This document shows positions 923 to 35,291 of a stretch of DNA of 38,214 nt, one piece after another. Position 1 is the first letter of the stretch; each line of letters starts with the position of its first letter. Made by a program: the position numbers and the translations under genes. Under the pieces are notes generated by a model. The model saw nothing but the letters and a program-made list of their open reading frames with translations, ran no database searches and had not been told where the DNA came from. Origin of the DNA: an uncultured Deinococcota bacterium (GTDB taxonomy: Bacteria; Deinococcota; Deinococci; Deinococcales; Trueperaceae); the NCBI GenBank assembly GCA_947311535.1, contig CAMZLP010000077.1, forward strand, positions 1-38,214, in the 5' to 3' direction.

Positions 923-3301
923 ATGTCAAGTTTGTTTGAAATTAGAAAAAGAATTTTGGGACCACTTAGGCTCGAGCTGAACTCAAATTGTCAAGATACT
1001 GCTGTTGTAGGCGGGATAGAAAAACTAGTTAATATTATAGGCAAACCTTTAAAAGATATAAGAGCTCTTGTAGAAAATTATGCTGAATTAGATTGTGAAA
1101 AAAGAAAAGAAAAAATAAAAGAGGCTATATATATTATTGAAACTGCCCTTAGTGAGCAAAAAAAACTTGATGAAGATAGGCTCGAGCCTGAGCAAAATAT
1201 TGGTACACGAAAAGATAAAAGTACAAAAAATCTTAATCTAACGAGCCAAGATATTTTGAATCAAGAACTAAGCACTAAAGCTATAGGATTAGCTGCTCAG
1301 GCCCCTAAAAAGCTAGCTACAATCGCTATAAAGACCTACAGGGAGCTACTTACTCACTATCCACGTAGATATGAAGACCGCCGTGCTTTGCCGCATTTTG
1401 CAGCTCTGCAAGAACAAGAAAGTGCTACGGTAAGCGCCACTATTAGTGGCCGAAAAGCAATAAAAGCCAGATCGGGCATGGCAATAGTAAGGGCATTTTT
1501 AGAAGATGATTTTGGAGCTAAATTAACAGCTGTATGGTTTAATCAAGCTTGGATAGAAAAACAATTGTTCCCAGGACAGAAGATAATTGTTACGGGAAAG
1601 TTAAAAAGACAAGGGCGTAAATTAGAATTAAATGTTGAACATTTTGAACTTGATGAGGATAGCGAATCGTTATCTATTAATAGAATAGTTAGCATTTATC
1701 CAACTACTCAAGGCTTGTCTCAGGCTTATATTAGACGTTCTATTTTTCAATTATTAAATGAATTACCTAGAATTCAAGACTATTTACCGAAAAGCATTAT
1801 TGATAAAAATTCATTATTAACATTAGATGCAGCTTTGCGCGAAATTCATTTTCCTAGTTCTGAAAAACAGTTACAAAAAGCAATTAGAAGGCTAAAATTT
1901 GACGAATTTTTGTTCTTAGAACTGCGAGTTTTATTAAATAGAGATACAAGCTTATTGGGCAAAAGCTTCAAAAATGCCAAAAAGCATTTAGAAAAATACC
2001 TCGAAATACTGCCTTTTGAAATGACTAAAGCTCAAAAAAGAGTGATAAAAGAAATAATTTCAGATATGTCTGAGCCAAAACAAATGGCTAGATTATTGCA
2101 AGGTGATGTTGGTTCTGGCAAAACTGCGGTAGCAGCAGCGGCTATATATATAGCCATAAAAAACGATTATCAAGCTGTATTAATGGCTCCTACCGAGATT
2201 TTGGCAAGGCAGCACTTTATTAACCTAAGTGAATATTTGTTTCCTTTAGGTATAAAGCTTGAGCTATTAACAGGAACAATGAAAGCCAAAGACCGCCGAG
2301 AGGCAAGAGAGCGATTAAAATCTGGCCAAGCTGATTTGATTATTGGTACTCATGCTTTAATACAAGAGGGGGTGGAATATAAAAAGCTTGGTTTAGTAGT
2401 AATTGATGAAGAGCATCGTTTTGGGGTAGAACAACGCCGTAAATTATTAGAGGATTTACCAGATGTTTTGGTCATGAGCGCTACACCAATACCAAGGTCT
2501 TTGGCACTTACTCAATATGGTGACTTAGAATTATCTATTATTGATGAATTGCCACCAGGGCGTAAAGCAATTAAAACAAAACTAATGAATGCTTCTAAAA
2601 GACGAGAGGTTTATAGATTTGCTTGGGGTGAAATCACAAAATCTAGGCAGGTTTATTTGGTTACACCGCTAATAGAAGATAGTGAAGCCTTAGAAAATAT
2701 TGTTTCTACTACTCAAATGTTTGAAGATTTGCAGCAAATAATGCCAAAAGCTTGCCGTATGGAAATGTTACATGGCAAAATGCATGCTAGCGAAAAAGAA
2801 GAAATTATGGAGAGTTTTCGTAAACATGAGTTTGATATGCTGGTTTCTACCACTGTTATTGAAGTTGGGGTTGATATTGCTAACGCCAGCGTAATGATTA
2901 TAGAAAATGCCGAGAGATTTGGCTTGTCACAACTTCATCAGCTAAGAGGGCGAGTAGGCAGGGGGGAATATGAGAGCTATTGTATTTTGGTAGCTGGCGA
3001 CCGAAGTAAAAAGACCCAACATAGACTAGAAGTAATAGAAAAATACACAGATGGATTCATAATTGCCGAAAAAGATTTGGAATTAAGAGGCCCTGGTGAG
3101 ATACGTGGTACTCGTCAATCTGGTATGCCTGATTTGATTTTAGGTGATTTAAAGCAGGATATAGACATAATAGAAAAAACCAGAGATTTGGCAATACGAA
3201 TGCTTAAGGCTGACCCTAAGTTAAATGCTAACTGGGCTAAGAGGTTAAAGAGCGAGCTTAGGCGTAGGAGTGATGCGGTGGGGTTTCGGCAGATTATTTA
3301 G
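923..3301 (+). CDS. recG: ATP-dependent DNA helicase RecG with N-terminal extension
   Basis: RecG remodels stalled replication forks and branch-migrates recombination intermediates in the cytoplasm. The 792-residue product has the OB-fold wedge domain (about 130-290), helicase lobe 1 with Walker A GDVGSGKT (394-401) and DEEH box (495-498), lobe 2 with QLRGRVGRG, and the RecG-specific LRGPGEIRGTRQSGMPD hook. It is about 100 residues longer than E. coli RecG. The extra N-terminal module (MSSLFEIRKRILGPLRLELN onward, with CQDTAVVGGIEKL) resembles the extension I recall from Deinococcus and Thermus RecG. The start is accepted because homology begins at once; TAGTAT 8 bases upstream and the lack of a Shine-Dalgarno site suggest a leaderless mRNA. 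Two GCTCGAGC palindromes lie in the extension (971, 1181). Confidence 0.95.
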   Translation: MSSLFEIRKRILGPLRLELNSNCQDTAVVGGIEKLVNIIGKPLKDIRALVENYAELDCEKRKEKIKEAIYIIETALSEQKKLDEDRLEPEQNIGTRKDKSTKNLNLTSQDILNQELSTKAIGLAAQAPKKLATIAIKTYRELLTHYPRRYEDRRALPHFAALQEQESATVSATISGRKAIKARSGMAIVRAFLEDDFGAKLTAVWFNQAWIEKQLFPGQKIIVTGKLKRQGRKLELNVEHFELDEDSESLSINRIVSIYPTTQGLSQAYIRRSIFQLLNELPRIQDYLPKSIIDKNSLLTLDAALREIHFPSSEKQLQKAIRRLKFDEFLFLELRVLLNRDTSLLGKSFKNAKKHLEKYLEILPFEMTKAQKRVIKEIISDMSEPKQMARLLQGDVGSGKTAVAAAAIYIAIKNDYQAVLMAPTEILARQHFINLSEYLFPLGIKLELLTGTMKAKDRREARERLKSGQADLIIGTHALIQEGVEYKKLGLVVIDEEHRFGVEQRRKLLEDLPDVLVMSATPIPRSLALTQYGDLELSIIDELPPGRKAIKTKLMNASKRREVYRFAWGEITKSRQVYLVTPLIEDSEALENIVSTTQMFEDLQQIMPKACRMEMLHGKMHASEKEEIMESFRKHEFDMLVSTTVIEVGVDIANASVMIIENAERFGLSQLHQLRGRVGRGEYESYCILVAGDRSKKTQHRLEVIEKYTDGFIIAEKDLELRGPGEIRGTRQSGMPDLILGDLKQDIDIIEKTRDLAIRMLKADPKLNANWAKRLKSELRRRSDAVGFRQII

Positions 3302-3333
3302 TTGCTTATTTGCAAACAGGGTTCAAGCTTTAG

Positions 3334-4227
3334 CTAGTCCGACCGCTTTGCAAATTTTGAAGCGGCATTTTTAGGATTTGTTTTGATTCCTTCAAACAAA
3401 GGGATTATATCTAGCATAAAAGACTGCATTCTTTGATTTAGTTCTTTTACTCTGTTTTTTATTGGGATTACCTTGATAGGGTGCTGCTCTAGGTATAAAT
3501 TTTGGTTTAGCTCGAGCCCAAAGCCAGGAATACTGTTAGGATTTTTGGGGTCACTTAGGCGTTTGGCAACACCTGCATTATTAAATGGGTCATTTATTAA
3601 AACTTCATCAGGTACGTCGCTATCTTTAATTATATCTTTAAAGTTTTTGTATAAAACCTCTACTAAGTTTTGAGCTAAGCTTGCAGGAACAGAAATATGT
3701 TCTTTAGTTGATTTTGCCTCACCATTGCTTTTGCCATTAGTTATAAAACTGAGAGCAGGGCGCTTCGTGCCGACATCTGGGCCAATTAGCGGGCCATTAG
3801 GGCTCATAGCATGGGCACTAATGAAATATAAGATTTCATTTTTTGCAATAATTCTGTCTAAGCTGGCATGATAGGGGTCATAATATCTAGCTAGGCGTTC
3901 TTCTAGCATATTTTTAGTAAATTCAAAACCCTCGCAATATAAGCTTTTGGCATCAAAATCGGTAATTTTTATTACCCCATTCATACCGCCCGTGTCACGC
4001 ATGCGATTTAGGTCAACTACAAACCGTGAAACTGTGGCATTTACAATATGGGCATTGGGGATAAAAAAGATTTCGTCAGTTAGGGGGTCACCTTGTTTAA
4101 ATAGATGATTTAAGCGTTCTTGGCGTTTTTCATAATCATGCACGCCCTCAGCTAGCATTTCTGCCAAAATATGAAACGGAGCGTGACCTGAACTATGAGG
4201 GGTATCAATGAGGATTGGTAGTGACAT
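3334..4227 (-). CDS. N-formylglutamate amidohydrolase-like protein
   Basis: A 297-residue protein of the N-formylglutamate amidohydrolase family (HutG-like). Members are zinc hydrolases releasing formate or an amine from N-acyl amino acids, classically the last step of histidine degradation. Visible family signatures are the N-terminal HSSGHAP metal-site segment, VVDLNRMRDTGG (where the family has V-DLNRP), SAHAMSPNGPLIGPDVGTKRP (where the family has DcHs...P-i-lG), and GFGLELNQNLYL near the C-terminus. No other hut gene is nearby, so the substrate is uncertain. It converges on recG. A TATAAT box ends 8 bases before the ATG and no ribosome-binding site is present, so translation is probably leaderless. 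Confidence 0.7.
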   Translation of the reverse strand: MSLPILIDTPHSSGHAPFHILAEMLAEGVHDYEKRQERLNHLFKQGDPLTDEIFFIPNAHIVNATVSRFVVDLNRMRDTGGMNGVIKITDFDAKSLYCEGFEFTKNMLEERLARYYDPYHASLDRIIAKNEILYFISAHAMSPNGPLIGPDVGTKRPALSFITNGKSNGEAKSTKEHISVPASLAQNLVEVLYKNFKDIIKDSDVPDEVLINDPFNNAGVAKRLSDPKNPNSIPGFGLELNQNLYLEQHPIKVIPIKNRVKELNQRMQSFMLDIIPLFEGIKTNPKNAASKFAKRSD

Positions 4228-6030: not shown

Positions 6031-7941
6031 ATGAAAACTAAATTGATTGGCATTTTGCTTATTTTATCTTTTGGTTTTGTTTTTGCGCAAAATACTGGTT
6101 CCTTTCGCTATGCTTATGAAGACTCTAATAGTGATTTGTACCGAGAATATGCCCAAATACTTAGCCAGCGCCAGTTTTTTGAGACTATTGCAGGAAATTT
6201 AAATGCCGCAATTGCTTTGCCATATGATATTGGTTTGGTAGCTGTGCAGTGTGATACTACAAATGCATTTTGGTCACCAGATAACAAGGCTATTGTAGTT
6301 TGTTACGAGATGTTAGAAATATTGATAGATGCATTTAGAAGAGATATTAGCAATCAGCAAGAACTATCAAATGCGGTATTTGGAGCCTTGGAATTTATCT
6401 TTTATCATGAATTGGGGCATGCCCTAATTGATATTTTTAATATACCCTCGACAGGTAGAGAAGAAGATGCAGTTGATCAGTTTTCAACTTTATTTTTGCT
6501 AGATACCGATGTTGGTATTGCTTCGGCTTTATCGGGCGCTAGCTTTTTTTATAAAATTGGTCAAGCAAGTGGTGGCTCAGTTCAAGATTTGGCATTTTGG
6601 GACGAACACTCTTTAAATCAACAAAGATTTTATAATATAGTTTGCTTGGTTTTTGGCTCTGACCCTAACCGATATCAGAACCTAGTTTTACAAAATTCAA
6701 AAGGCTTTTTACCAGGTAATGGTAGTGGTATTTTACCAAAAGAACGTGCGGTGCGCTGCCCTAGCGAATATGCAGATATTAGTAGAAGTTGGAATATCTT
6801 GATTAATGACTATGTGGCATTTAAAAATAACCCAAATAATAATCAAAATACAAATGCTTCGACAAATCCACCAGTGACGACAGCACCAGTAGCTAGCCCA
6901 CCCACAAATCCTGTATCACACCCTGTTGCAAATAACCAGGCTAATTATGAAACCTATAATGGTAATTTAGCTACTAATGATTCAACTTTAGATAATGGTG
7001 AATATCTTGATCTCTATGAGCTCGAGCTGATAGCAGGTCAAGAAGTAAATATAGCTTTGGCATCTAATGATTTTGATACTTACTTAATTGTTCAAAGCCC
7101 AGAAGAGATAAGCTATGAAAATGATGATGCAGCAGAAACAACTGCTCAATATTCATCAAATATAACTATACCTGTAATTGTTAGTGGCACTTATAAAGTT
7201 GCTGTAACCAGCTATGAAGCTGCTAGCCAAGGTGCTTATCAATTAGTAATTAGCAAACAAAATGATGTTTATGATGGTTTAAGCGAAGAGCAGTTATCGG
7301 CTGCTGATGCACAGTTTGATAGTGGTGAATACTACGATGTCTATGAATACAATTTTAGTGCTGGTGAACACATTACTTTAGCTCTTAGCTCGAGCCAATT
7401 TGATCCATATTTAATGGTAATTTCACCATCAGAACAGCGCCAAGAAAATGATGACTATGCTGGTCAATCTCATATTTCGCGCTTAGAATTTGATGTTGCT
7501 GAGGCTGGTACCTGGAAAGTATATGTAAGCTCTTATGAGCAAGGCGAATCTGGAGCTTATCAATTAGTAATTGGCCATGGCAATGCTCAAACTGCTGGGC
7601 AAGCAGCACCGCAAGCTAATAATACGCCAGCAGCTACAGTTTATAATGGTAGCTTGCAATTTGGCGATAGTACTTTAGATACTGGTGAATACGCTGATCT
7701 TTATGAAATTAACTTAGCTGTTGGTCAGCAAATTGTTGCTAATCTTAGTTCTACTGGTTTTAATACCTATTTGGGGATTCGTTCACCATCTGGGGTTGTA
7801 ACAGAGCTTGATGAGCTAGCAAACCAAGCGCGCCAATCCAGAATAAGTTTAACTGCCAATGAAGCTGGTATTTGGACTGTATTTGTGACTACCATGCAAG
7901 CTGGTGAGCAAGGTAATTATTCTTTAAGTATTAGAAAATAA
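6031..7941 (+). CDS. Secreted DUF4344-type metallopeptidase with three PPC domains
   Basis: A 636-residue secreted protein. After a signal peptide (MKTKLIGILLILSFGFVFAQ) comes a domain of about 250 residues with the zinc-peptidase motif HELGH (126-130) followed by GREEDAVDQFS (REED at 143-146), where the second acidic residue would supply a zinc ligand. This arrangement matches the DUF4344 putative metallopeptidase family. A low-complexity Asn/Pro/Thr linker (about 270-305) leads to three PPC domains (about 308-410, 415-515, 530-636) with the same GEYxDxYE ... FDTYL ... SYE...GAYQLVI pattern as the two upstream proteins. Secreted proteolysis is inferred from the motif; the substrate is unknown. 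The neighbours may be partners sharing the same domain. Two GCTCGAGC palindromes occur (7021, 7389). Confidence 0.8.
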   Translation: MKTKLIGILLILSFGFVFAQNTGSFRYAYEDSNSDLYREYAQILSQRQFFETIAGNLNAAIALPYDIGLVAVQCDTTNAFWSPDNKAIVVCYEMLEILIDAFRRDISNQQELSNAVFGALEFIFYHELGHALIDIFNIPSTGREEDAVDQFSTLFLLDTDVGIASALSGASFFYKIGQASGGSVQDLAFWDEHSLNQQRFYNIVCLVFGSDPNRYQNLVLQNSKGFLPGNGSGILPKERAVRCPSEYADISRSWNILINDYVAFKNNPNNNQNTNASTNPPVTTAPVASPPTNPVSHPVANNQANYETYNGNLATNDSTLDNGEYLDLYELELIAGQEVNIALASNDFDTYLIVQSPEEISYENDDAAETTAQYSSNITIPVIVSGTYKVAVTSYEAASQGAYQLVISKQNDVYDGLSEEQLSAADAQFDSGEYYDVYEYNFSAGEHITLALSSSQFDPYLMVISPSEQRQENDDYAGQSHISRLEFDVAEAGTWKVYVSSYEQGESGAYQLVIGHGNAQTAGQAAPQANNTPAATVYNGSLQFGDSTLDTGEYADLYEINLAVGQQIVANLSSTGFNTYLGIRSPSGVVTELDELANQARQSRISLTANEAGIWTVFVTTMQAGEQGNYSLSIRK

Positions 7942-8100: not shown

Positions 8101-8910
8101 ATGGGATTTTTAATAATAAGCGACATAGACCATACACTTTTAAATAATGACGGTGAATTATTGACTGCAAATATAGAGGCACTTGCTAAGGCTCGAGCAC
8201 TCGGAGCAACAGTTGTTTTATCAACTGCACGCAGTTTTGCAGGCACACTGAGTGTACATAAGGCCTTAGATTTAGAAACGCCCCTGATTGTAAGTAACGG
8301 CACAATTATAGCAACAAAAGAAGGGAAAATATTAAACACTGAGGCTATAAAAAATGAAACGGTTGTTGATGTATTTAAGCTTTACAAAGAGACTGGCAAT
8401 GCTTGGATTTTAAGAACGCCTAATTTCCCTTATTTTCATCCAGAATTAGCAGCTAATGGTGGACCATTTGGAATCGAAGAAAACCGTAAAACAATGAATC
8501 CTGACAATATGCTCGAGCATATTCAAAATAATGGCCATACGCCAATTGTATCAGCTAGTTTATTTGGAGCAAATCTGGAAAGCTTTTATAATGCTAATGA
8601 TTGGCGTGAAATGGGACTTATTCCGGACTTTTATCCACCTAGTCACTATTACAGCAAAGATGGTATGAGTGTGATGTCTGCTAATGCTAGTAAAGGCAAT
8701 GCTGCGAGATGGTTACAAAACTATATGGGTTTAAATGATTCGCCGGTAATAGCACTTGGTGACAATGTTGCAGATGCCACTATGTTTAGTATGGGCATAG
8801 GTGTAGCCCCAGAAAATGCCAAAGCAGAAGTAAAAGAACAAGCAGATTGGGTGGCCCCACATTGTGATGATGGAGCAGTTGCTGCGGCTATTAAAAAATT
8901 TGTACTCTAA
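8101..8910 (+). CDS. Cof-type HAD phosphatase
   Basis: A 269-residue HAD-superfamily hydrolase of the Cof/subclass IIB type, which dephosphorylates small phosphorylated metabolites. Motif I is SDIDHTLL (nucleophile Asp8, Asp10), motif II is VLSTARSF, and motif IV is ALGDNVADATMF near residue 220, followed by the family ending GVAPENAKAEVKEQADWV. An extended -10 (TGCTATAAT, 8028-8036) precedes it. GGGAG lies rather far (about 14-19 bases) from the ATG, so initiation is not strongly defined. It ends with a 4-base convergent overlap with the next gene. Substrate cannot be told from sequence. Confidence 0.85.
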   Translation: MGFLIISDIDHTLLNNDGELLTANIEALAKARALGATVVLSTARSFAGTLSVHKALDLETPLIVSNGTIIATKEGKILNTEAIKNETVVDVFKLYKETGNAWILRTPNFPYFHPELAANGGPFGIEENRKTMNPDNMLEHIQNNGHTPIVSASLFGANLESFYNANDWREMGLIPDFYPPSHYYSKDGMSVMSANASKGNAARWLQNYMGLNDSPVIALGDNVADATMFSMGIGVAPENAKAEVKEQADWVAPHCDDGAVAAAIKKFVL

Positions 8911-9445: not shown

Positions 9446-9874
9446 TTAGTTTATTGAATAGATATCCAGATATATTTTAGTAATCTTAGCAAATTCTTTA
9501 AAACTGGGTTTGGTTTTGGTATAAAATAAATGGCTGTAACATTTGCAATCAGAGCAACCAAAGCCTTTTATTGAGCTATAATCATTATTGTTTTCTAATA
9601 GATTTGCCCAGATATGCTCGAGCCTATCCCCATTATAACTAAGCCAAGCTGCTTGCAATTTAATACTCTCAGTTAAATAATCAATGTGCCAGTGTGCTTT
9701 CTTTTTCCTAAAATGACGGGAGACTCGAGCTTTAATACCTCCGGGGCCAAAAGCACTACCGATATAAATATAGTAGCCAATTTTAATATCTAATAATCGT
9801 AAACGCCCAATCTGAATTTGTTTTTGCTCTTTGGCTCCTAAAATAACTGCATATGTTCCAGATTGAGCTTTCAT
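9446..9874 (-). CDS. DUF123 / GIY-YIG-fold protein
   Basis: A 142-residue protein whose opening SGTYAVIL, then YYIYIGSAFGPGGIKARVSRHFR and KAHWHIDYL, are hallmarks of the DUF123 family, a GIY-YIG-like fold sometimes fused to endonuclease III. The cysteine-rich segment GCSDCKCYSHLFY is also typical of the family. A nuclease or DNA-repair role is suggested by the fold but not proven. It starts one base after the stop of the upstream patB-like gene, so the two form an operon. Two CTCGAG cores (9617, 9724) lie in it. Confidence 0.8.
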   Translation of the reverse strand: MKAQSGTYAVILGAKEQKQIQIGRLRLLDIKIGYYIYIGSAFGPGGIKARVSRHFRKKKAHWHIDYLTESIKLQAAWLSYNGDRLEHIWANLLENNNDYSSIKGFGCSDCKCYSHLFYTKTKPSFKEFAKITKIYLDIYSIN

Positions 9875-9875: not shown

Positions 9876-11036
9876 TTATTGCACAGCAGCGATAAGTTTT
9901 TTGATGGCAGTTTTTACATCTTCTTGTGAACTTGCAATATTCATACGCATAAATAGTGCGCCTTCACGCCCAAACCAATGCCCTGCGTTCATGGCAATCC
10001 CAGATTTTTTAGTAATTTGACTAAACATATTTTTGCTATCATCATAAATATTTCTAAAATCTAACCAAACCTGATAAGTGCCTTCTGGCTTTATTAATTT
10101 TATTTTAGATTTAGACTGTTTTAGCTCTGTTTCTATGATATTTATATTATTTTCAATAGTTTTTATTAGTTTTTTTAACCAAGCATCGCCGCTTGTATAG
10201 GCTGCTTCTAAGGCTACTCGGGTAAGGGCATTTGTGCGACCTAAATTGTATTTAGAAAAGCTTGTTTTTAGTGTTTTTCTAATATCTTCATTATTAATTA
10301 TGATAGTGGCATCGCTAATGCCGCAAATATTAAAAGATTTGGCTTCGGAATTGCAAACAGCAATTTTTTGATAGTTTTTTCGGTATTTTAAAACTGAATT
10401 AAATTTGTTATCAAATAAAATAATATCTTTATGTGCTTCATCAGCAATAATAAGCAGATCATTTCTTTGGCAAATATCAACTAGTTTTTCTAATTCTTGC
10501 TCACTCCAAACACGCCCTACTGGATTATGTGGATTGCAAACTATGAGGATTTTGTTCTTCTCTTGTTTGGCTTTTTCTTCTAAATCTTCAAAGTCAAAAC
10601 GGTACTTGCCATTTTCAAATTTTAAAGGATTTTTAATTATCCTTCTTTTGGTTTTACGAATTGTATCTTTAAATTCCATAAAAACAGGTGGCTGAATGAT
10701 AACCCCATCACGAACTTCGCTGAAATTTTCAATAATTAGGGCAATTGCTGTGGATATTGTGGGGCTATAAAATACCTCTTCGGCTTTTAAATCAACTTGA
10801 TAATGCTGTTTATACCAATTGCGTTGCGCCACAAAGAAGCTCTCTGGTTTATATTCGTAGCCTAGGCTCGAGCCTGATATCCTATTTATTAGAGCATCTT
10901 GAATCGGCTTGGCTATTTCAAAATCCATGTCGGCTACCCACATTGGCATCATTTCGCTGCTATCAAAAAGCGATTTTAGAGTCTCAGGTTTATTTTTGGT
11001 TAAAGGTAATTGACTAAGGTTTTTAGATATATTCAT
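9876..11036 (-). CDS. patB: PLP-dependent C-S lyase / aminotransferase, PatB/MalY type
   Basis: A 386-residue fold-type I PLP enzyme of the PatB/MalY cystathionine beta-lyase group, which cleaves cysteine S-conjugates or cystathionine to a thiol, pyruvate and ammonia. Visible signatures are MWVADMDFEIAKPI near the N-terminus, LGYEYKPESFF, NPHNPVGRVWS, IADEAHKDI (the Asp binding the PLP pyridine nitrogen), SEAKSFNICG with the Schiff-base Lys233, and MRMNIA (carboxylate-binding Arg) near the end. TATAAT ends 6 bases before the ATG with no ribosome-binding site, so it is probably leaderless. It is co-transcribed with the DUF123 gene. Beta-lyase versus aminotransferase activity cannot be decided from sequence. 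Confidence 0.85.
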   Translation of the reverse strand: MNISKNLSQLPLTKNKPETLKSLFDSSEMMPMWVADMDFEIAKPIQDALINRISGSSLGYEYKPESFFVAQRNWYKQHYQVDLKAEEVFYSPTISTAIALIIENFSEVRDGVIIQPPVFMEFKDTIRKTKRRIIKNPLKFENGKYRFDFEDLEEKAKQEKNKILIVCNPHNPVGRVWSEQELEKLVDICQRNDLLIIADEAHKDIILFDNKFNSVLKYRKNYQKIAVCNSEAKSFNICGISDATIIINNEDIRKTLKTSFSKYNLGRTNALTRVALEAAYTSGDAWLKKLIKTIENNINIIETELKQSKSKIKLIKPEGTYQVWLDFRNIYDDSKNMFSQITKKSGIAMNAGHWFGREGALFMRMNIASSQEDVKTAIKKLIAAVQ

Positions 11037-11358: not shown

Positions 11359-12084
11359 TTATTGTTGGTTTTTATTGGCTAAAACTAAAAACACAAATCT
11401 AACTAGTCTTGGAAAGCGGTGCCAGCGTTTGCGGTCACTTAGTATCCTATAAGCCCACTCGAGCCTAAGCTTATGCGTCCACGGGGGGCTGCGCTTTACT
11501 GTGCCAGAGAGCACGTCCAAAGTGCCACCTGCCCCAATCATTAGTGGGATATTTAGTTCATTTTTATTCTTATACAAAAATAATTCTTGACCTTCTCCAA
11601 GCCCAGCAATTAAAAGTTCGGCATTTGAGGCTTTTATTATTTTTATAATGTCTTGGGCGTTATCTTTGTCAAAATAGCCATGATGATAGCCAGCAATTAA
11701 GGTGCCGTATTTTTCTTGGGTTTTTTTGGCAGCTTGTTTGGCTACGCCATCTTTTGAGCCCAAAAAAAACACTTTAATATTATTTTTGGCAGTAGCTAAA
11801 ATCTTGTCAATAAGTTCTACCCCTGCAACTCGTTCCAAGCTATAGCCATATTGCTTGGCAGCCCATGTTAGGCCAATGCCATCAGCAACTGTAAAGCTGG
11901 CATTTTCAAGAGCATTTTTTAGTTCTGAATCTTTTTGAGCATTTATTACAATTTCTGGGTTCAAGGTTACCAGTAGCTTTGGCTCAGGAGTTTTTATTGC
12001 TTGCAAAGACCAATTGCAGGCTTGCTCTAAATTGACAATTGCTAGTTTGTAATCTAAAACTTGGGCGTAGTCTATTTTGTCCAT
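11359..12084 (-). CDS. WecG/TagA/CpsF-family glycosyltransferase
   Basis: A 241-residue member of the GT26 family, which transfers N-acetylmannosaminuronic acid or N-acetylmannosamine to lipid-linked sugars in cell-envelope polysaccharide synthesis. Signatures are LVTLNPEIVINAQKD, TVADGIGLTWAAK (catalytic Asp region), FFLGSKDGVAKQAA, GYHHGYFD, LLIAGLGEGQELF, GAGGTLDVLSGTVKRSPPW and LEWAYRILSDRKRWHRFPR. The positively charged C-terminal tail is thought to mediate membrane association in the family. No other envelope polysaccharide gene adjoins it. It is divergent from bshC across 83 bases. Confidence 0.9.
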   Translation of the reverse strand: MDKIDYAQVLDYKLAIVNLEQACNWSLQAIKTPEPKLLVTLNPEIVINAQKDSELKNALENASFTVADGIGLTWAAKQYGYSLERVAGVELIDKILATAKNNIKVFFLGSKDGVAKQAAKKTQEKYGTLIAGYHHGYFDKDNAQDIIKIIKASNAELLIAGLGEGQELFLYKNKNELNIPLMIGAGGTLDVLSGTVKRSPPWTHKLRLEWAYRILSDRKRWHRFPRLVRFVFLVLANKNQQ

Positions 12085-26656: not shown

Positions 26657-27658
<1,002 letters not shown>

Positions 27659-27723: not shown

Positions 27724-27900
27724 ATGGCTATCTTAGCAATTAGAAAAATATCAACAACCTATATTTTAGATACTTGTATTGATAATTATGCTCGAGCAAA
27801 TTGGCGAGAGGATTTTGATCTTGTCAATTGTGATGTGCGTAGGCTTACCAATAATCAACGACTTTCAAGCTCTATTTTTATTGGACTTTCAAGAAACTAA
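27724..27900 (+). CDS. Possible 58-residue ORF between ilvC and leuA
   Basis: ATG 27724 to TAA 27900 encodes 58 residues beginning MAILAIRKISTTYILDTCID and ending IFIGLSRN. There is no ribosome-binding site and no recognised family. It contains a TGCTCGAGCA palindrome in the Ala-Arg-Ala frame (27790-27799), the only copy not inside a well-supported gene. The 264-base ilvC-leuA gap is long for this tight operon, so it may be a small gene, a decayed gene or a second control region. The ORF extending leuA upstream to 27779 in another frame is rejected because leuA has a good start at 27923. Confidence 0.3.
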   Translation: MAILAIRKISTTYILDTCIDNYARANWREDFDLVNCDVRRLTNNQRLSSSIFIGLSRN

Positions 27901-27922
27901 TTCTTATAGAAATGGAGTAAAA

Positions 27923-29455
27923 ATGTCTTACGTAAAAATATTTGATACAACCCTTCGTGATGGTGAGCAAGCCCCTGGGATTGCCTTAAACCCAAACCAA
28001 AAGCTAGAAATTGCCCATGCTTTAGCTAATTTAGGTGTAGATATAATTGAAGCAGGTTTCCCGATTGCTAGTAGGGGAGATTTTGATTGCGTTTATCAAA
28101 TTGCCCGCGAAGTCAAAGGCCCAGTGATTTGTGCCTTAGCTAGAACCGATAAAAAAGATATAGAACGAGCTGCAGAGGCGATTAGAACGGCTAAAAAAGC
28201 CCGTATTCATACCTTTACAAGTGCTTCTAAGGTTCATTTGGATTTTATTTTAAAAATGAGCGAACAAGAAGTCTTAGAACAAACTGATGAAATGGTCAGA
28301 TATGCTAAAAGCTTTGTTGATGATGTTGAGTTCTCAGCTCAAGATTGCATGCGGGCAGACCCTGAATTTGTATATCAATTGGTGCGTATGGCGATTGCAG
28401 CAGGGGCAACAACTGTTAATATCCCTGATACTACAGGTTATGGCACACCAATTGAATATGGCGCGCTTATTAAATCTATTTTTGATAATGTACCTGAAGC
28501 ACACGATATTACTATTTCTACCCATTGCCATGATGATTTGGGTTTGGCAGTTGCCAATAGCTTAGCTGCAGTTGAAAATGGAGCTAGGCAAATAGAATGC
28601 ACCATTAATGGTATTGGTGAGAGAGCTGGCAATACTTCTTTAGAAGAATCGGTAATGGCCTTGTACACCCGTAAAGATTATTATGGTTTAGAGCTTGGTA
28701 TTAATACCCGTGAGTTATATTTTAGTTCGCAACTAGTTGCTAGGCACACAGGGGTAGAAGTGCCACCTAATAAAGCAATTGTTGGTGATAATGCTTTTGC
28801 CCATGAGGCGGGCATACATCAAGACGGGGTATTAAAAAATAAAGATACTTATGAAATTATGAATGCTGAAATTGTCGGCCGTGAGGCTGGCGTGCTGGTG
28901 ATGGGTAAGCACTCTGGGCGTAATGCTTTTAGAAAACGTCTTACTGAGCTTGGTTATACCGATGTTGACGATAAATCATTAAATGCATTTTTTAGGCAAT
29001 TTAAAGATTTAGCTGACCTTAAACAACGAGTTAGTGATGATGATATTATTTCATTAGTTGATACCGAAACTACTAAAATAGAAGAATTGTATAGGCTCGA
29101 GCATATCCAATTTCAATCTGGAACTGGCGGTATGACACCAAGTGCACTAATTAGGCTTAAAACCCCAGAGGGTATAAAAGAAACAACTGCTTTGGGCAGT
29201 GGCCCTGTTGACGCTAGCTTTAATGCACTTAAAAAACTAAGCCCTATGCCTATCGAAGTAGAATCTTATGATTTGCGGGCTATTGGTAGCGGTACTGATG
29301 CTTTGGGTGAAGTTTCGATAAGAGTTAAAAGCAATAATCAAATTGTTCATGGTCAGGCGGCATCAACAGATGTTGTGCATTCCTCGGTACTTGCTTTTGT
29401 AGATGTACTAAATAGATTAGCTGCTGGGATTGGTAAAAATAGAAAGGCTGTTTAA
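27923..29455 (+). CDS. leuA: 2-isopropylmalate synthase
   Basis: A 510-residue enzyme condensing acetyl-CoA with 2-oxoisovalerate, the committed step to leucine. The TIM-barrel domain opens with FDTTLRDGEQAPGIALN and has the metal ligands HCHDDLGLAVANSLAAVENGA and NTSLEE. The C-terminal LeuA allosteric domain (about 380-505) ends in GQAASTDVVHSSVLAFVDVLNRL and should bind leucine for feedback inhibition. GGAG lies about 6 bases before ATG 27923; the in-frame upstream extension is not homologous and is discarded. One palindrome copy is at 29096. cimA follows 9 bases after the stop. Confidence 0.95.
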   Translation: MSYVKIFDTTLRDGEQAPGIALNPNQKLEIAHALANLGVDIIEAGFPIASRGDFDCVYQIAREVKGPVICALARTDKKDIERAAEAIRTAKKARIHTFTSASKVHLDFILKMSEQEVLEQTDEMVRYAKSFVDDVEFSAQDCMRADPEFVYQLVRMAIAAGATTVNIPDTTGYGTPIEYGALIKSIFDNVPEAHDITISTHCHDDLGLAVANSLAAVENGARQIECTINGIGERAGNTSLEESVMALYTRKDYYGLELGINTRELYFSSQLVARHTGVEVPPNKAIVGDNAFAHEAGIHQDGVLKNKDTYEIMNAEIVGREAGVLVMGKHSGRNAFRKRLTELGYTDVDDKSLNAFFRQFKDLADLKQRVSDDDIISLVDTETTKIEELYRLEHIQFQSGTGGMTPSALIRLKTPEGIKETTALGSGPVDASFNALKKLSPMPIEVESYDLRAIGSGTDALGEVSIRVKSNNQIVHGQAASTDVVHSSVLAFVDVLNRLAAGIGKNRKAV

Positions 29456-29464: not shown

Positions 29465-31042
29465 ATGAAAAATAAAATCGAAATCTACGATACAACCTTG
29501 CGTGATGGCACGCAAGGTTTGGACTTTAACTTAACCGCCCAAGATAAAGTGGCAATTGCCAAACGTTTAGATGAATTTGGCGTAGATTTCATTGAAGGTG
29601 GCTGGCCTGGGTCTAATCCAAAGGATATGGAGTTCTTTGAGATGATGAAAACGGTTGACTTAAATACGGCTCAACTGTCGGCATTTGGTTCAACTAGGCA
29701 TCGTAATAATTTGGCAGAACAAGACCCAAATCTACTAGCTCTTTTAGAAGCAGAAACCTCAGTAGTAACTATTTTTGGTAAAACTTGGGATTTGCACGTA
29801 ACCACTGCTCTTGGAGCAACGCTTGCAGAAAATTTAGAGATGATAAAAAGCTCTATTGCTTTCATGAAATCACATGGAAAAATTGTTGTTTACGATGCTG
29901 AACACTATTTTGACGGCTACAAAGCTGACCCAGAATATGCTCAAAAAACCTTGCAAGCAGCCCTAGATGGTGGAGCTGATAGATTGGTTCTTTGTGATAC
30001 TAATGGCGGAAGCTTGCCAGATTTTGTTGCTGCTAGGGTTAGCCAAGCCATAAAAGATTTTGATTGCCCCATTGGGGTACACACTCATAATGATTGTGAG
30101 CTTGGTGTGGCTAATTCATTGATTGGGGTAGAAGCAGGTGCTGTGCATGTGCAAGGCACTATTAATGGTTACGGTGAGCGCTGCGGGAATGCCAATTTGA
30201 CTAGTATTATTCCTAATCTAGCTATAAAAATGGGTCATGAGCAACCACAAGATTTAGAACAATTACGTGAGCTAAGCCATTATATTGACGAGCGAGCTAA
30301 TTTACAGCCAAATATAAGAGCTGCATATGTTAGTGATTCTGCATTTGCTCATAAAGGCGGCATCCATGTTTCGGCAGTTAATAAAAACCCAGATACCTAT
30401 GAACATATTAAGCCAGAGCTAGTTGGTAATAAGCGGCGGATTTTATTATCTGATTTATCAGGTAGAGCCAATGTGCTTGCCAAAGCTGATGAATACGGTG
30501 AAGTGGTAGATGGTAAAGACCCAGCTATAAGAGCGATTGTTGATAAAATGAAAGCTTTGGAGAATCGGGGCTATTCTTTTGAGGGTGCTGAGGCTAGCTT
30601 TTTGCTAATGAGTAAAAAGGTGAAAAAGGAGTATACACCTTACTTTAAATTACATGGTTTTAATGTAGCTATTGTAAAAAGAGATGGTGACAAAAAACCT
30701 GTGGTAGAAGCAACTGTTAAATTAGATGTCGGTGGGACATTAGAGCATACCGCCGCCAGTGGAGACGGGCCTGTTAATGCACTTGACCGAGCTTTAAAGA
30801 AAGCTTTATTACGTTTTTATCCTAGTTTGGGTCAGCTCGAGCTTATTGACTATAAAGTACGAGTACTATCTGGCGTTGAGTCTGGCACAAAGAGCGTTGT
30901 TCGGGTACAAGTAGAAACAAGCGATAAAATAGATACTTGGGGCACAGTTGGTGCAAGCACTGATATTATTAATGCCTCTTACGAAGCTTTGATTGATGCT
31001 ATGGAGTATAAGCTTTTAAAGGATCAAACTAAAGCTTTATAA
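29465..31042 (+). CDS. cimA: (R)-citramalate synthase
   Basis: A 525-residue relative of LeuA that condenses acetyl-CoA with pyruvate to citramalate, feeding 2-oxobutyrate to isoleucine without threonine. It is assigned to the CimA group by YDTTLRDGTQGLDFNLTAQDKVAIAKRL, FIEGGWPGSNPKD, HTHNDCELGVANSLIGVEAGA, GYGERCGNANLTSI, HKGGIHVSAV and LSGRANV, which differ consistently from LeuA. The C-terminal regulatory domain ends in WGTVGASTDIINASYEALIDAMEYKLL. It is the last gene of the operon; ilvD and leuBCD are elsewhere. One palindrome copy is at 30836. Confidence 0.94.
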   Translation: MKNKIEIYDTTLRDGTQGLDFNLTAQDKVAIAKRLDEFGVDFIEGGWPGSNPKDMEFFEMMKTVDLNTAQLSAFGSTRHRNNLAEQDPNLLALLEAETSVVTIFGKTWDLHVTTALGATLAENLEMIKSSIAFMKSHGKIVVYDAEHYFDGYKADPEYAQKTLQAALDGGADRLVLCDTNGGSLPDFVAARVSQAIKDFDCPIGVHTHNDCELGVANSLIGVEAGAVHVQGTINGYGERCGNANLTSIIPNLAIKMGHEQPQDLEQLRELSHYIDERANLQPNIRAAYVSDSAFAHKGGIHVSAVNKNPDTYEHIKPELVGNKRRILLSDLSGRANVLAKADEYGEVVDGKDPAIRAIVDKMKALENRGYSFEGAEASFLLMSKKVKKEYTPYFKLHGFNVAIVKRDGDKKPVVEATVKLDVGGTLEHTAASGDGPVNALDRALKKALLRFYPSLGQLELIDYKVRVLSGVESGTKSVVRVQVETSDKIDTWGTVGASTDIINASYEALIDAMEYKLLKDQTKAL

Positions 31043-31073: not shown

Positions 31074-31835
31074 TTAAGGTATTAAACTACCCTCTTGTCT
31101 ACCATATTCAAGTGCTGGCTCATCTCGACCTACGTAGATATTAACAGTTTTGCTATGTTTACTATTCATGGTGTCGCCAACAATGGCTGTAAAGCTACTA
31201 TGGCCGGCAATAGTTTTATCAATATTAATGGTGATTTTACTTCCACAAGGATACTTAGCCAAAATATCTCGACTAACTGCAACGTGCTTCCAAGCTTCTA
31301 GGGTAATACCACAAGCACCAGAGCCGCCAGTTACATAGCTAAAACCAATGCTTTGCAAGTCAAAACTGCCCTCGGGTAAAGCTGCTGCAACTATTTCTGC
31401 TGGGTTGCTATTGCTTGGGCTCGAGCCTTGATTAGTAGTTTCGCTTTGAGTGGCTACTTCTGTATTAGTATTTGCTGTAGTATTTGCTGTGCTGTTGGCT
31501 GTGCTGTTTGCTGTAGTATTTGCGCTACTATTTTCATTTACTGTAGTATTAGTATTTGCTGTTGTAGCGGCATTTGGATTATTAGGGTTGACTACTTGAA
31601 CCATATCACCGGTGCTATTACTATTGCTTGTATCTGGGTTTGGATTGCTATCAGTTGTAGCATTAGAATCGTTTGCTGAATTAAGATTATTGCTTGGATT
31701 TGTTTGGATTATAGGATTACTGTCACGGCTAAAGCCTTTAAAGTTAAAGCTTGGCCCATAGAGGGTAATACCTACTAGTAAGGCAACTATAACTAAAGCC
31801 ATCAATAATCCTAAATCTAATAATTTGTCTTTCAT
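31074..31835 (-). CDS. Membrane-anchored protein with low-complexity linker and double-psi-barrel-like domain
   Basis: A 253-residue protein. ATG 31835 is preferred over a TTG six codons upstream. One membrane segment (about 5-27; LGLLMALVIVALLVGITLYG) is followed by about 130 residues rich in Asn, Thr and Ser with repeated (N/S)TTAN and NTTANS units, a flexible spacer. The C-terminal ~100 residues (GACGITLEAWKHVAVSRDIL, YPCGSKITI, VGDTMNSKHSKTVNIYVG, ALEYG) look like the double-psi beta-barrel of 3D/RlpA-type proteins, with two cysteines. The role is probably at the cell envelope. GCTCGAGC at 31419-31426 encodes Gly-Ser-Ser at the end of the spacer. Confidence 0.65.
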   Translation of the reverse strand: MKDKLLDLGLLMALVIVALLVGITLYGPSFNFKGFSRDSNPIIQTNPSNNLNSANDSNATTDSNPNPDTSNSNSTGDMVQVVNPNNPNAATTANTNTTVNENSSANTTANSTANSTANTTANTNTEVATQSETTNQGSSPSNSNPAEIVAAALPEGSFDLQSIGFSYVTGGSGACGITLEAWKHVAVSRDILAKYPCGSKITINIDKTIAGHSSFTAIVGDTMNSKHSKTVNIYVGRDEPALEYGRQEGSLIP

Positions 31836-32046
31836 AATTCTATCCAATCGCAAAATTTAAGTACTAGCAATTACCTTTTAGTTCTTTGATTATAGCCCGA
31901 AATATAATTTTTAGGGCTTTAAGAATAACAAAATTTTGTTAATAATCTCACAACGGATAAATTTAGTAATTATCAAATTTATGCTATTATTGCGCTAGTG
32001 AACTAAAACTACTAGCTCCAAAAACTATTATTAGGAGGAAGACTGA

Positions 32047-32097: not shown

Positions 32098-32483
32098 TAA
32101 AGAAACGTTTGCGAAAAAGAACATTAGCAGATTTACAACCTCTTGTTAAAGCAGGAAAGTATAGAATTGGTTCGCATGCAGTTAGGCATTCTTTTGCTGA
32201 GGGATTTACTGAAAAAGATATTATAGGCAGTATTTTATATGGAAAAGAATTACTGCGTTATATCCAAGATGAACGATTACTAGTTTTGGGCTATATTTCG
32301 GTAAGTGCTGATGTTCGAATTCCTTTGCACGTTGTGCTCGAGCACAAGCTCCCAAGACAGGTAGATATAATCACCGCCTTTATCCCTCAGCAGGCTCATA
32401 GAGTTATGTCTCGTGGTAGATTAGCAGAATTTTTACGACACGATTTTAATCAAGCTGAAGTGTCTTTTGTTGGTAATAAATAG
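32094..32483 (+). CDS. DUF4258-like protein
   Basis: A 129-residue protein. Residues about 18-90 (KYRIGSHAVRHSFAEGFTEKDIIGSILYGKELLRY, then LVLGYISVSADVRIPLHVVLE) fit the DUF4258 pattern, in which a helix with His-x3-R and an E-x-D-I element precede a beta sheet. This fold is related to RelE/toxin-like small proteins, but many members are not toxins. No antitoxin-like gene adjoins it; only the 16-codon upstream ORF does. GTGCTCGAGCAC, a 12-base palindrome, lies at 32334-32345. The gene ends 2 bases before the convergent tatD. Confidence 0.65.
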   Translation: MIKKRLRKRTLADLQPLVKAGKYRIGSHAVRHSFAEGFTEKDIIGSILYGKELLRYIQDERLLVLGYISVSADVRIPLHVVLEHKLPRQVDIITAFIPQQAHRVMSRGRLAEFLRHDFNQAEVSFVGNK

Positions 32484-32485
32484 CT

Positions 32486-33244
32486 TTAGATTGGTAATTT
32501 ATAAACTTTTATGGCATTGGCATCGGTATAAGCTTCTACTTCTGCTAAGCTCTCGCCACGTAATTCGGCCAAAAATGCAGCAGTATGCCTAACATAAGCT
32601 GGGGTATTGCGTTTGCCACGTTTTGGCACTGGGGCAAGATACGGGCTATCAGTTTCTAGCATTAAATATTCTTGGGGTATTATTTGGGCAGCTTTATGTA
32701 ATTCACTTGCTTTTTTATAGCTTAAGTTACCAGCAAAGGAAATCATCCAATTTTGCTCGAGCCCAATTTTAAGTAGCCCCTCATGACCATTAAAGCAATG
32801 TAGTATTCCTCTACTTACGCCACTTTCTCTAATCATTTTCATAGCTAGCAGGCTTGCATCTTCTTTGCCTTGCTTGTCTCTAATATGTAAAATTAAAGCT
32901 TTATCTAGCTTTTTTGCTAGTTCAGCCTGCCAGATAAATGCTTCAGCTTGAGTTTCAAAAGTTTCATCGTCCCAATAATTATCAAAACCAGTTTCACCAA
33001 TGCCTACAACGGTATCATTTGTGGCTAGTTTTTCTATGCCTTGGCGAATTTTAGCATCTTTGGCATCGCTGGCATTATTGGGATGGATACCAACAGCTAG
33101 CCAAACATTTGGGTAATTGTTGGCAATGGCAAGGCTATTTATAGAACGCTCTAAGCTAGTACCAACAGTTACCATGGCTTTTAAGCTAGAATCGGCGGCA
33201 TCATCATTTTTACAAGAATCTAAGTGGCAGTGACTATCTATCAT
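32486..33244 (-). CDS. tatD: TatD-family metal-dependent deoxyribonuclease
   Basis: A 252-residue TIM-barrel hydrolase. Metal ligands and family motifs are MIDSHCHLD, AVGIHPNNA, VVGIGETGFDNYWD, ALILHIRDK, GILHCFNGH, and LMLETDSPYLAPVPKRGKRNTPAYV. Family members degrade DNA 3'-5' and act in repair or quality control. TATTAT lies 9 bases before the ATG and no ribosome-binding site is visible. A GCTCGAGC is at 32755-32762. Confidence 0.93.
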   Translation of the reverse strand: MIDSHCHLDSCKNDDAADSSLKAMVTVGTSLERSINSLAIANNYPNVWLAVGIHPNNASDAKDAKIRQGIEKLATNDTVVGIGETGFDNYWDDETFETQAEAFIWQAELAKKLDKALILHIRDKQGKEDASLLAMKMIRESGVSRGILHCFNGHEGLLKIGLEQNWMISFAGNLSYKKASELHKAAQIIPQEYLMLETDSPYLAPVPKRGKRNTPAYVRHTAAFLAELRGESLAEVEAYTDANAIKVYKLPI

Positions 33245-33858: not shown

Positions 33859-34518
33859 ATGAAAAATATGTTAAATTTAAGAAACTTGCGTTTTTTACTT
33901 GCTCAAATACTACTACTATTTATAATGCTAAGCAGTTCTTATAGCTTAGCTCAGAGCTTTGTGCCGATTCAAGGAATGGCTTCTTGGTATGGCCCCAAAT
34001 TTGCAGGTAGATTAACTGCTAATGGTGAAATATTTGACCCATCTGAGTTGACGGCAGCCCATAAAACTCTAGCTTTTGGTACTATCGTACGTGTTACTAA
34101 TGTGACTAATAATTTGTCAGTGATTGTTCGTATAAATGATCGTGGGCCTTTTGTTAAGCAAAGGGTTATAGATTTATCAAGATTTGCTGCCGAGCAAATT
34201 GATATGATTGGCCCAGGTACAGCCGAAGTAATTATTGAAGAAGTGGTATCTGAAGTTGAGATAAGCCCAGTAGAAGTAGTTGCGCTTGATGATAATTTTC
34301 AGCAAGCAGGGATAGATAGCTCTTTATATAGTTTTGATATTATTTCTAAGCAGCATAAAGTTGGAGAATTAATTGTGTTAGGCTCGAGCCTATCTGAGCA
34401 AAGACTATTAGTAAGAGTAGTTGCAAATTCTAGCTCAGTAGGTGACTACAATATATACCTCTCCCCAGAGCTATTTGCTAGCCTAGGGGAGCAAGTAAGT
34501 ATTATCTCAGACCGTTAG
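33859..34518 (+). CDS. rlpA: RlpA-family septal ring lytic transglycosylase-like protein
   Basis: A 219-residue secreted protein. The signal peptide (about 1-31, LLAQILLLFIMLSSSYSLAQ) is followed by the RlpA double-psi beta-barrel (about 36-125; GMASWYGPKFAGRLTANGEIFDP, TAAHKTLAFGTIVRVTN, VRINDRGPFVKQRVIDLSRFAA). In Gram-negatives RlpA cleaves glycan strands lacking stem peptides at the septum. The remaining ~90 residues are not a standard SPOR domain that I can recognise. A GGCTCGAGCC (34381-34390) encodes Gly-Ser-Ser. It overlaps trpA convergently by 4 bases. Confidence 0.88.
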   Translation: MKNMLNLRNLRFLLAQILLLFIMLSSSYSLAQSFVPIQGMASWYGPKFAGRLTANGEIFDPSELTAAHKTLAFGTIVRVTNVTNNLSVIVRINDRGPFVKQRVIDLSRFAAEQIDMIGPGTAEVIIEEVVSEVEISPVEVVALDDNFQQAGIDSSLYSFDIISKQHKVGELIVLGSSLSEQRLLVRVVANSSSVGDYNIYLSPELFASLGEQVSIISDR

Positions 34519-35291
34519 CGTTTGCAAGCAGCTGCAATTTCGGCAGCTAATTCATTTAAATTATTATCTGCAACTGATTGTATCATTGCAGAACCAACAA
34601 CAACCCCGTCAGCGATTTTAGCAATGGGGTTTGCTGTTTTGGCGTTAGATATACCAAAGCCAACAGCAATTGGTAAATCAGTTATTGCTTTGGCTCTTTT
34701 TACTAAACCAGTTACTTCTGTTGGTAAACTTTGCCTTGCACCTGTTACTCCAGTTACTGAAACAGCATAAATAAAACCACGGCTGGCTTCTGCTACAATT
34801 TTTAATCTTTTATCTGTAGAAGTTGGTGCAATTAAAAAGATAGTATCTAAATCTAATTTTCTGGCAATTGGTATTAGCGTATCAGCTTCATCTGCTGGCA
34901 AATCTGGTAATATTGCGCCATCTGCTCCAGAATCTTTTAAAGCCTTTAAAAAACCTTCTTCACCACCACTATAGCAATATATTGGGTTGTAATAGGTCAT
35001 AACCACAATAGCTTTGTCTGTTTTTTGTCGTAATATTTTTATAAGTTCAAATACTTTGGCCGTAGTCATTCCTTGCTGTAAAACTTGTTCGCCAGCTCGT
35101 TGTACAGTTGGCCCATCACCTAAGGGGTCAGAATATGGAATACCAAGTTCTATCATGTCGGCATGCTCGAGCATGTTTAATGAATATTTTATAAAGTCAC
35201 TTTCATTTGGGTAGCCAGCAGTTAGGTAAACAATAAATGCAGCTCGGTTTTCTGCTTTGGCTTTTGCAAAAACTTCTTTAATTCGGCTCAT
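34515..35291 (-). CDS. trpA: Tryptophan synthase alpha chain
   Basis: A 258-residue TIM-barrel subunit that releases indole from indole-glycerol phosphate and channels it to TrpB. Signatures are [11 protein letters not shown] (catalytic Glu equivalent nearby), [20 protein letters not shown] with the catalytic Asp, [11 protein letters not shown] and [12 protein letters not shown] choose ATG 35291 (MSRIKEVF) over 35303 because GGAG lies 6 bases before it. The start lies inside the 3' end of trpB (14-base overlap), so the two are coupled. A 14-base palindrome CATGCTCGAGCATG is at 35162-35175. Confidence 0.96.

Follow-up and report, generated by a model that had tools for sequence, protein, structure and literature searches.

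The octamer GCTCGAGC, in which the palindromic hexamer CTCGAG is enclosed by G and C, is a highly iterated palindrome (HIP) of the class known from HIP1 of cyanobacteria. It pervades the genome of the uncultured Trueperaceae bacterium (phylum Deinococcota) that contains the stretch of DNA analysed here (contig CAMZLP010000077.1; 38,214 nt, termed the window). This class assignment, which a preliminary description of the window had anticipated, is based on the genome-wide and protein-independent occurrence of the octamer, its position as top 8-mer, a HIP1-like density and one-off variants lying mainly at the outer positions. The same description had taken the octamer as the unit; it does rank first among the 8-mers of a sample of this genome, but the unit shared between relatives is the hexamer CTCGAG, which is iterated in many Deinococcota lineages, the outer G..C being a lineage-specific preference. 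From the sequence comparisons below, the underlying process may be tied to DNA methylation, with methylation-linked maintenance of the sites, which is the favoured reading at slightly less than even confidence.

Exact counting gave 27 copies of GCTCGAGC and 31 of CTCGAG in the window at a G+C content of 36.8%, in agreement with the earlier figures (27, 31 and, by eye, about 36%). In 100 dinucleotide shuffles of the window, the mean was 0.14 copies and the maximum 2, with none of the shuffles reaching 27; the chance expectation had been put at 0.1–0.2. As previously described, the copies extend over practically the whole span 969–35,175 (first copy 970–977, last copy 35,165–35,172) and lie in genes of both strands, all 27 within open reading frames (ORFs) of at least 100 aa. 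The encoded peptide is x-Leu-Glu-x at 20, x-Ser-Ser at 4 and Ala-Arg-Ala at 3 of the 27 sites. The next base pair outwards, reported to be often palindromic as well, was so in 14 of 27 copies (GG..CC 6, TG..CA 5, AG..CT 2, CG..CG 1). HIP1 proper was rejected as the element, with 0 copies of GCGATCGC in the window.

Throughout the assembly of the window's genome (2,717,585 bases in 191 contigs, 92% complete), 1,592 copies of GCTCGAGC were counted against 41 of the reversed control CGAGCTCG, corresponding to 586 per Mb or approximately 0.6 per kb. In a genome sample of 250,496 bases (22 pieces, window included; reverse complements merged), GCTCGAGC ranked first among 29,379 observed 8-mers, its 163 copies far exceeding the 2.6 predicted by a trinucleotide Markov model (z ~100). 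Counts near Markov expectation and an excess confined to the window had been named beforehand as outcomes that would speak against a new iterated palindrome; neither was found, since the excess is genome-wide and the octamer is the rank-1 8-mer of the sample. Phylogenetic trees of IlvC and V-ATPase subunit I placed the window's genome near G001 and G017 (support 96/95 and 97/97), and the TrpB and IlvB trees did not resolve its position; here and below, the codes G, g and f denote genomes, genera and families of the Deinococcota relatives in the comparison.

The excess of GCTCGAGC in the window's genome is explained by neither codon nor amino-acid usage. Synonymous-codon shuffling of 210 sampled genes (25 shuffles) gave 4.4 ± 1.6 expected copies versus 152 seen, which rules out codon or peptide bias for this genome. 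All three reading frames are used (34, 26 and 92 copies). Of the places permitted by the amino acids, 152 of 310 are filled (Ala-Arg-Ala 35/44, x-Ser-Ser 25/70, x-Leu-Glu-x 92/196), compared with 0 of 17 in G003, a genome with little excess. An origin in biased use of codons, codon pairs or peptides, or in an artefact of assembly, could draw on the predominance of Leu-Glu at the window sites, on the Thermus-like genome G039, where codon usage accounts for about half of the CCTCGAGG copies (76 vs 39.5 expected), and on G012, where CTCGAG reaches only 156 vs 112.7 under codon shuffling. Set against this are the three frames in use, the 35-fold excess remaining after synonymous shuffling, the presence of CTCGAG also in non-coding DNA of family f5 and the recurrence of the palindrome across many separate assemblies, and such an origin is considered extremely improbable.

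One-off neighbours of GCTCGAGC in the sample were in excess at the outer position (47 vs 7.2 expected, both strands) and not at positions 2 to 4 (28 vs 48.8 expected), so that the outer position accounted for 47 of 75 neighbours instead of 7.2 of 56. A dispersed repeat of the REP (repetitive extragenic palindromic) or MITE (miniature inverted-repeat transposable element) type was rejected on the ground that the six bases beside the octamer show only weak preferences of at most 0.40 bits per position. A weak extended preference TAGGCTCGAGCCTA with G at position −6 was observed around the octamer, codon context not being separated out.

CTCGAG was surveyed in 111 Deinococcota genomes from 31 genera and five families, with the reversed hexamer GAGCTC as control. 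It was more than twice as frequent as GAGCTC in 54 of the 111 genomes, and genus medians exceeded twofold in 20 and fourfold in 12 of the 31 genera, the latter 12 coming from four of the five families. The control is not codon-corrected, and lower ratios may mean little, because after codon shuffling CTCGAG is only 1.3 to 1.4 times as frequent as expected in G012, G003 and G024. The extremes were four f5 genomes with 26,619 to 28,178 CTCGAG vs 4 to 15 GAGCTC and two g24 genomes with 21,868 vs 25 and 14,690 vs 2, amounting to 6 to 8 hexamers per kb; codon shuffling in f5 left CTCGAG 10-fold (G040) and 4.6-fold (G048) in excess. Of 37 Trueperaceae genomes, 7 contain more than eight times as many copies of the full octamer as of its control. 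No excess was seen in the first 50 kb of Deinococcus radiodurans plasmid MP1 (8 CTCGAG) or in G037 (683 vs 1,525 control). G076 and G108, in which pieces read as N, were left out of the results, and G009 was resampled for codon shuffling.

The flanks of CTCGAG differed between lineages, being G..C in 159 of 214 cases in the window's genome and C..G in 123 of 263 in G041, with a palindromic flank of any kind in 84 of 457 in G040; the g24 samples are too short for flanks to be judged, as are those of G045, G049 and G069 (<10 kb) for detail. The flank CCTCGAGG was found for 80 of 83 CTCGAG in G039 and for 39 of 45 in the first 50 kb of plasmid pTT27 of Thermus thermophilus HB8 (L235). Codon shuffling in G039 accounts for all of the CTCGAG (79 vs 98.7 expected) and for about half of CCTCGAGG; the Thermus pattern is therefore one of avoidance of other TCGA and not of strong CTCGAG iteration. 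Nearly every TCGA there lies within CTCGAG (49 TCGA in the pTT27 stretch, 86 in G039), from which it follows that TCGA is avoided outside this context.

Some further features of the CTCGAG-rich genomes were recorded. GAGCTC is nearly absent from f5 and g24 (2 to 25 per genome), and codon shuffling gave 0 vs 13 in G040 and 1 vs 44 in G048. GGCC occurred once in 20 kb of G040, with 55 expected. The f5 genomes contain a dispersed repeat of ~28–33 bp with ~90–100% identity (e.g. G040:C1:6350-6382, L044), present at many places in G044, G048 and G052; it is largely palindromic, because both strands match at several places.

The preliminary description had proposed a comparison of related genomes at synonymous positions, and in two congeneric pairs CTCGAG was kept far beyond other spellings. 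Between the congeners G040 and G044 (72% DNA identity over 11.4 kb), 49 of 69 CTCGAG were kept, compared with 86 of 381 control hexamers of equal composition. Where Leu-Glu was conserved, CTCGAG was kept in 32/37 and other spellings in 0/5 cases from G040 to G044 (reverse, 34/37 and 0/7), and in 23/25 and 3/22 cases from G001 to G017 (reverse, 23/31 and 3/16). Some process thus acts on single sites, since CTCGAG persists at a level of divergence at which other synonymous spellings have become randomised. Between the window's genome and G001, G017, G011, G009 and G008 pooled, no clear difference was seen (8/55 kept vs 36/428 octamers of the same composition), and 0 of 14 sites were kept in G003; these comparisons involve few sites of the window's genome, the same ones recurring in each, and the five genomes compared across genera have 454 to 875 GCTCGAGC per Mb. 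We conclude that the sites are durable within two genera and mostly at new places between genera. An impression that one-off variants were missing among lost sites (2/7, 4/9, 1/3 and 1/10 vs ~60–66% for other hexamers, amino acids fixed) was not used, as it depends on a handful of sites.

The conservation within the two pairs, together with the strong iteration of one core under changing flanks in four of five families, would also fit a selected, methylation-free binding site. Its ligand would be a factor of recombination, segregation or the nucleoid, or a chi-like one, with a flank preference drifting by lineage. A slight regularity of site spacing points the same way: of eight samples, all but G041 (1.10) have a coefficient of variation between 0.81 and 0.94, and in f5 fewer sites than expected lie within 20 bases of one another, the latter partly since the motif cannot overlap itself. 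However, a palindrome gives no direction, unlike chi, 6–8 sites per kb in two lineages are dense for known segregation signals, and in the window's genome sites less than 20 bases apart are if anything commoner than expected (0.042 vs 0.013). A binding site of this kind is a serious rival to methylation-linked maintenance, although on balance an unlikely one.

A second serious rival is biased repair or mutation alone, in which a mismatch- or gene-conversion-like ratchet makes and protects functionless CTCGAG sites. It is consistent with the high occupancy of permitted places, the lack of excess among internal one-off neighbours and the positions differing mostly across genera. It also accords with the non-coding density of CTCGAG in f5, which equals or exceeds that of coding DNA in three of four genomes, and with G001, where non-coding DNA is not spared (6 sites to 11 two-off neighbours vs 39 to 134 in coding DNA). 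In the window's genome, by contrast, ORFs of at least 100 aa fully enclose all but 7 of 159 sites (0.18 per kb outside or at the ORF edges vs 0.74 inside), and 2 sites were found in 31 kb outside ORFs of at least 60 aa. The depletion persists per two-off neighbour (non-coding 2:51 vs coding 160:530; Fisher p = 4e-4), and a ratchet driven by sequence alone would not be expected to leave non-coding DNA out. In f5, some neighbours one transition away from the site occur at about twice the expected number, the pattern that ordinary decay would leave. Repair bias as the sole cause is regarded as rather doubtful, if less so than the binding site.

No site was present, vs 7.5 expected (P = 5e-4), in 10.2 kb from five stretches of the window's genome that carry genes of restriction, methylase or transposase-like type or their neighbours; the stretches were chosen by annotation, partly by eye, are slightly AT-richer and were presumably acquired. 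Such site-free stretches and a density of ~0.6 per kb, which is of the right order, are what a DNA uptake or self-recognition signal would give. The uptake sequences of Neisseria and Pasteurellaceae are likewise short, genome-wide and similar in density, but they are longer than 8 bp and not palindromic, unlike GCTCGAGC, which is a palindrome of 8 bp occurring in three reading frames. Moreover, D. radiodurans is transformable although the 50 kb of MP1 showed no excess, and CTCGAG density varies more than tenfold within the phylum, which makes an uptake signal very unlikely. Among the best 25 of 87 viral loci scanned (at least 127 stretches reported), no AT-rich locus with dense GCTCGAGC was found; L375 (17 vs 1) and L340 (15 vs 0) are GC-rich.

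If the sites are maintained through methylation, CTCGAG would be marked by a methyltransferase that is an orphan or whose identity changes, and the marked hexamer would be used by the replication or mismatch-repair machinery. Resident genes would then tend to acquire such sites and to retain them, along the lines of Elhai's proposal for HIP1, and the outer base pair would be set by the writer or reader preference of each lineage. A methylase had been among the causes suggested in the preliminary description, together with a search for an orphan methyltransferase. Support for the methylase idea was indirect. A predicted adenine methyltransferase family, defined by alignment A1 (domains PF02384, PF07669 and PF22837; cut-off E <= 1e-20), was present in 23 of 111 genomes, namely 9 of the 37 Trueperaceae and 14 of genus g25, and it is associated with the octamer in Trueperaceae; none was found in the assembly of the window's genome. 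The median ratio of GCTCGAGC to control was 8.9 in the 9 Trueperaceae carriers vs 0.9 in the 28 non-carriers (p = 2.5e-4, kinship ignored). In G001, G011, G005 and G016, A1 has dnaG (named by eye) on one side and the V-ATPase operon on the other, and G017 has it next to the V-ATPase operon; the stretches read around A1 in G012 and G008 included neither dnaG nor V-ATPase genes. No restriction partner was seen by eye at the A1 loci. In G003 and G024, dnaG and the V-ATPase genes adjoin without a methylase, and the excess of GCTCGAGC is small or absent (50 vs 27 and 60 vs 40).

Several observations weigh against a methylation-linked origin, or at least against A1 as its agent. The association was weaker per genus (p = 0.07; 7 genera vs 10), and in g25 (family f4) the 14 carriers and 4 non-carriers showed no difference in CTCGAG ratio (p = 0.96). 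The window's genome gave, even at E <= 1, weak matches to type IIG-like genes alone in its 92% complete assembly, and G009 gave a weak match at most in an assembly 67% complete; both have a GCTCGAGC/control ratio of 39. Past the V-ATPase operon of the window's genome, 1.8 kb to the contig end contained neither A1 nor dnaG. The f5 genomes, richest in CTCGAG, had no A1 at the cut-off.

A structure model of A1 (mean predicted local distance difference test score, pLDDT, 88; from alignment A2 with 20 of the 23 carriers) was, among solved structures, nearest to CamA and then M.BseCI, with M.TaqI lower, an order that likewise weighs against the methylation reading; by sequence profile, M.BseCI ranked first. 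M.BseCI acts on ATCGAT and M.TaqI on TCGA, and the CamA target lacks TCGA. A target of A1 containing TCGA is therefore at most hinted at by the model, because the first two enzymes act on TCGA-containing sites and CamA does not. Nine of 84 matching plasmid records were examined for A1 relatives. In seven of the nine, a protein of 248 to 357 aa is encoded directly downstream, and in two a second methylase comes next; these neighbouring proteins had insignificant Pfam matches, with weak REase_II matches for two. A1 gained no support as an XhoI-type enzyme, the downstream proteins having no XhoI-type match in Pfam or PADLOC (7 each) or NCBIfam (6), which also counts against methylation of CTCGAG by A1. 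No phage record matched A1.

No other methylase could be assigned to CTCGAG in the window's genome. PF01555 had no match in the window's genome, G001, G009, G011 or G017. PF00145 was present in 8 of 19 genomes searched. In the window's genome it is represented by a 109-aa fragment at the end of contig C87, the sole piece of a 5-methylcytosine (m5C) methylase found there. This fragment is 61% identical to the enzyme on plasmid NC_001336, which we take to be GGCC-specific, and it was accordingly dropped as a CTCGAG methylase, again to the disadvantage of the methylation reading. One methylase common to the phylum was rejected as well, as the closest PF00145 enzymes (G040, G044, G045 and G001; 59–74% identity) do not track the palindrome. 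No CTCGAG restriction-modification pair could be assigned in the window's genome from methylase families, restriction-enzyme families not having been searched genome-wide. The genome carries type IIG-like genes, and the central part of one of them (L013:194-2890, contig C40; 899 aa) matches an IS200/REP-type transposase domain, giving the appearance of an in-frame insertion of one gene into another.

The sites of the window are compiled in Table 1. The Lon protease encoded there matches solved Lon proteins, the top match being, we presume, a Thermus entry. A further word, AAAGCTTT, is dispersed in the window (14 copies vs 1.3 expected from base composition, codon use not factored in). In a 243-kb sample of the genome, GATC was strongly depleted (180 vs 824 expected from base composition), and CGATCG, GTCGAC and GACGTC each occurred twice vs 28 expected.

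Table 1. Copies of GCTCGAGC and remaining CTCGAG cores in the window; (-) marks the strand where given.
Feature	Position	Peptide or variant	ORF and product
GCTCGAGC	970..977	R-LE-L	923-3301, RecG-like (name by eye)
GCTCGAGC	1180..1187	R-LE-P	923-3301
GCTCGAGC	3510..3517	G-LE-L	3334-4227 (-)
GCTCGAGC	7020..7027	E-LE-L	6031-7941
GCTCGAGC	7388..7395	SSS	6031-7941
GCTCGAGC	8191..8198	ARA	8101-8910
GCTCGAGC	8511..8518	M-LE-H	8101-8910
GCTCGAGC	9616..9623	R-LE-H	9446-9874 (-)
CTCGAG core in ACTCGAGC	9724..9729	one-off at position 1	
GCTCGAGC	10866..10873	GSS	9876-11036 (-)
CTCGAG core in ACTCGAGC	11458..11463	one-off at position 1	
GCTCGAGC	12650..12657	W-LE-Q	12168-13721, BshC-like (name by eye)
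GCTCGAGC	13265..13272	V-LE-P	12168-13721
GCTCGAGC	14826..14833	G-LE-P	13981-15351
CTCGAG core in CCTCGAGG	15588..15593	other flank	
GCTCGAGC	16371..16378	ARA	16367-18760 (-), Lon protease
CTCGAG core in ACTCGAGC	19328..19333	one-off at position 1	
GCTCGAGC	20443..20450	V-LE-Q	20291-21178 (-)
GCTCGAGC	21757..21764	V-LE-P	21206-22399 (-)
GCTCGAGC	21958..21965	M-LE-P	21206-22399 (-)
GCTCGAGC	21969..21976	ARA	21206-22399 (-)
GCTCGAGC	24388..24395	A-LE-R	24359-26071, IlvB-like (name by eye)
GCTCGAGC	27388..27395	G-LE-R	26660-27658, IlvC-like (name by eye)
GCTCGAGC	27790..27797	M-LE-Q	27779-29455, near 5' end; start codon uncertain
GCTCGAGC	29095..29102	R-LE-H	27779-29455
GCTCGAGC	30835..30842	Q-LE-L	29465-31042
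GCTCGAGC	31419..31426	GSS	31074-31853 (-)
GCTCGAGC	32336..32343	V-LE-H	32094-32483
GCTCGAGC	32755..32762	G-LE-Q	32486-33244 (-)
GCTCGAGC	34382..34389	GSS	33859-34518
GCTCGAGC	35165..35172	M-LE-H	34515-35303 (-), TrpA-like (name by eye)

To our knowledge, HIP1 has been known for decades and has no agreed function. With the present element, the HIP puzzle of cyanobacteria seems to recur in a different phylum. It is tentatively suggested, with a confidence somewhat below that in a methylation link, that Deinococcota possess a HIP system of their own, independent of cyanobacteria. In it, CTCGAG would be iterated in at least four families, the outer pair would be set by each lineage's writer or reader, and half (here) to three quarters (Leu-Glu in f5) of permitted sites would be filled. 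If so, the two groups would have converged on G + methylatable hexamer + C through a single mechanism, for which methylation-directed repair is the likeliest candidate, and where Trueperaceae have lost the palindrome, the disappearance of the orphan methylase would be the reason. With a second case, tests become possible of the methylase link, of what the outer G..C does and of selection versus biased repair; natural contrasts are offered by relatives devoid of the palindrome and by the two lineages in which hexamers number in the tens of thousands. It also bears on the use of XhoI in Deinococcota and on composition-based metagenome binning. As far as searched, the sequence, the phylum, the combination of a common core with flanks that vary by lineage, and the high density of the hexamer in two lineages are new. 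The preliminary description knew of no such element, and in the open-access literature, a scope outside which most subscription journals fall, none was described in the text accessible to the search; one open-access paper contains GCTCGAGC as a word under an unrelated title.

Among known systems, the same hexamer is the target of an orphan methyltransferase in Nocardia, a solitary enzyme with a proposed role outside restriction, according to Blow et al. (2016, PMC4752239). The Nocardia motif clusters by dnaA, in contrast to the genome-wide spread found here. CTCGAG methylation has also been reported from Halorubrum, Micrococcus luteus and giant viruses.

The closest parallel is HIP1, for which Elhai (2015, PMC4390886) treats a case confined to one phylum; the second phylum includes cultured bacteria. 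That paper gives 300 to 2,700 copies of GCGATCGC per Mb in most cyanobacteria, a range that includes the 586 per Mb of GCTCGAGC, and reports methyltransferases matching cyanobacterial palindromes. It also mentions HIP1-bearing genomes without a CGATCG methylase, as in the window's genome, where no matching methylase was found, and calls the relationship between HIP1 and methylase a mystery. In the model put forward there, repair takes its direction from a methylated C that follows G, to the advantage of G + hexamer + C. The fit of our data to this model is partial, because it needs cytosine methylation, whereas the family of A1 is one of adenine methyltransferases, and because f5 lacks the outer G..C rule. 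Both octamers consist of G + palindromic hexamer + C, are the dominant 8-mer of their genome, have one-off variants mostly at positions 1 and 8 and are suspected of a tie to orphan methyltransferases. Unlike HIP1, the present element is built on CTCGAG and not CGATCG, belongs to Deinococcota and not cyanobacteria, keeps its core constant while the flanks vary between families, and reaches its highest hexamer densities in two lineages without a strict flank rule.

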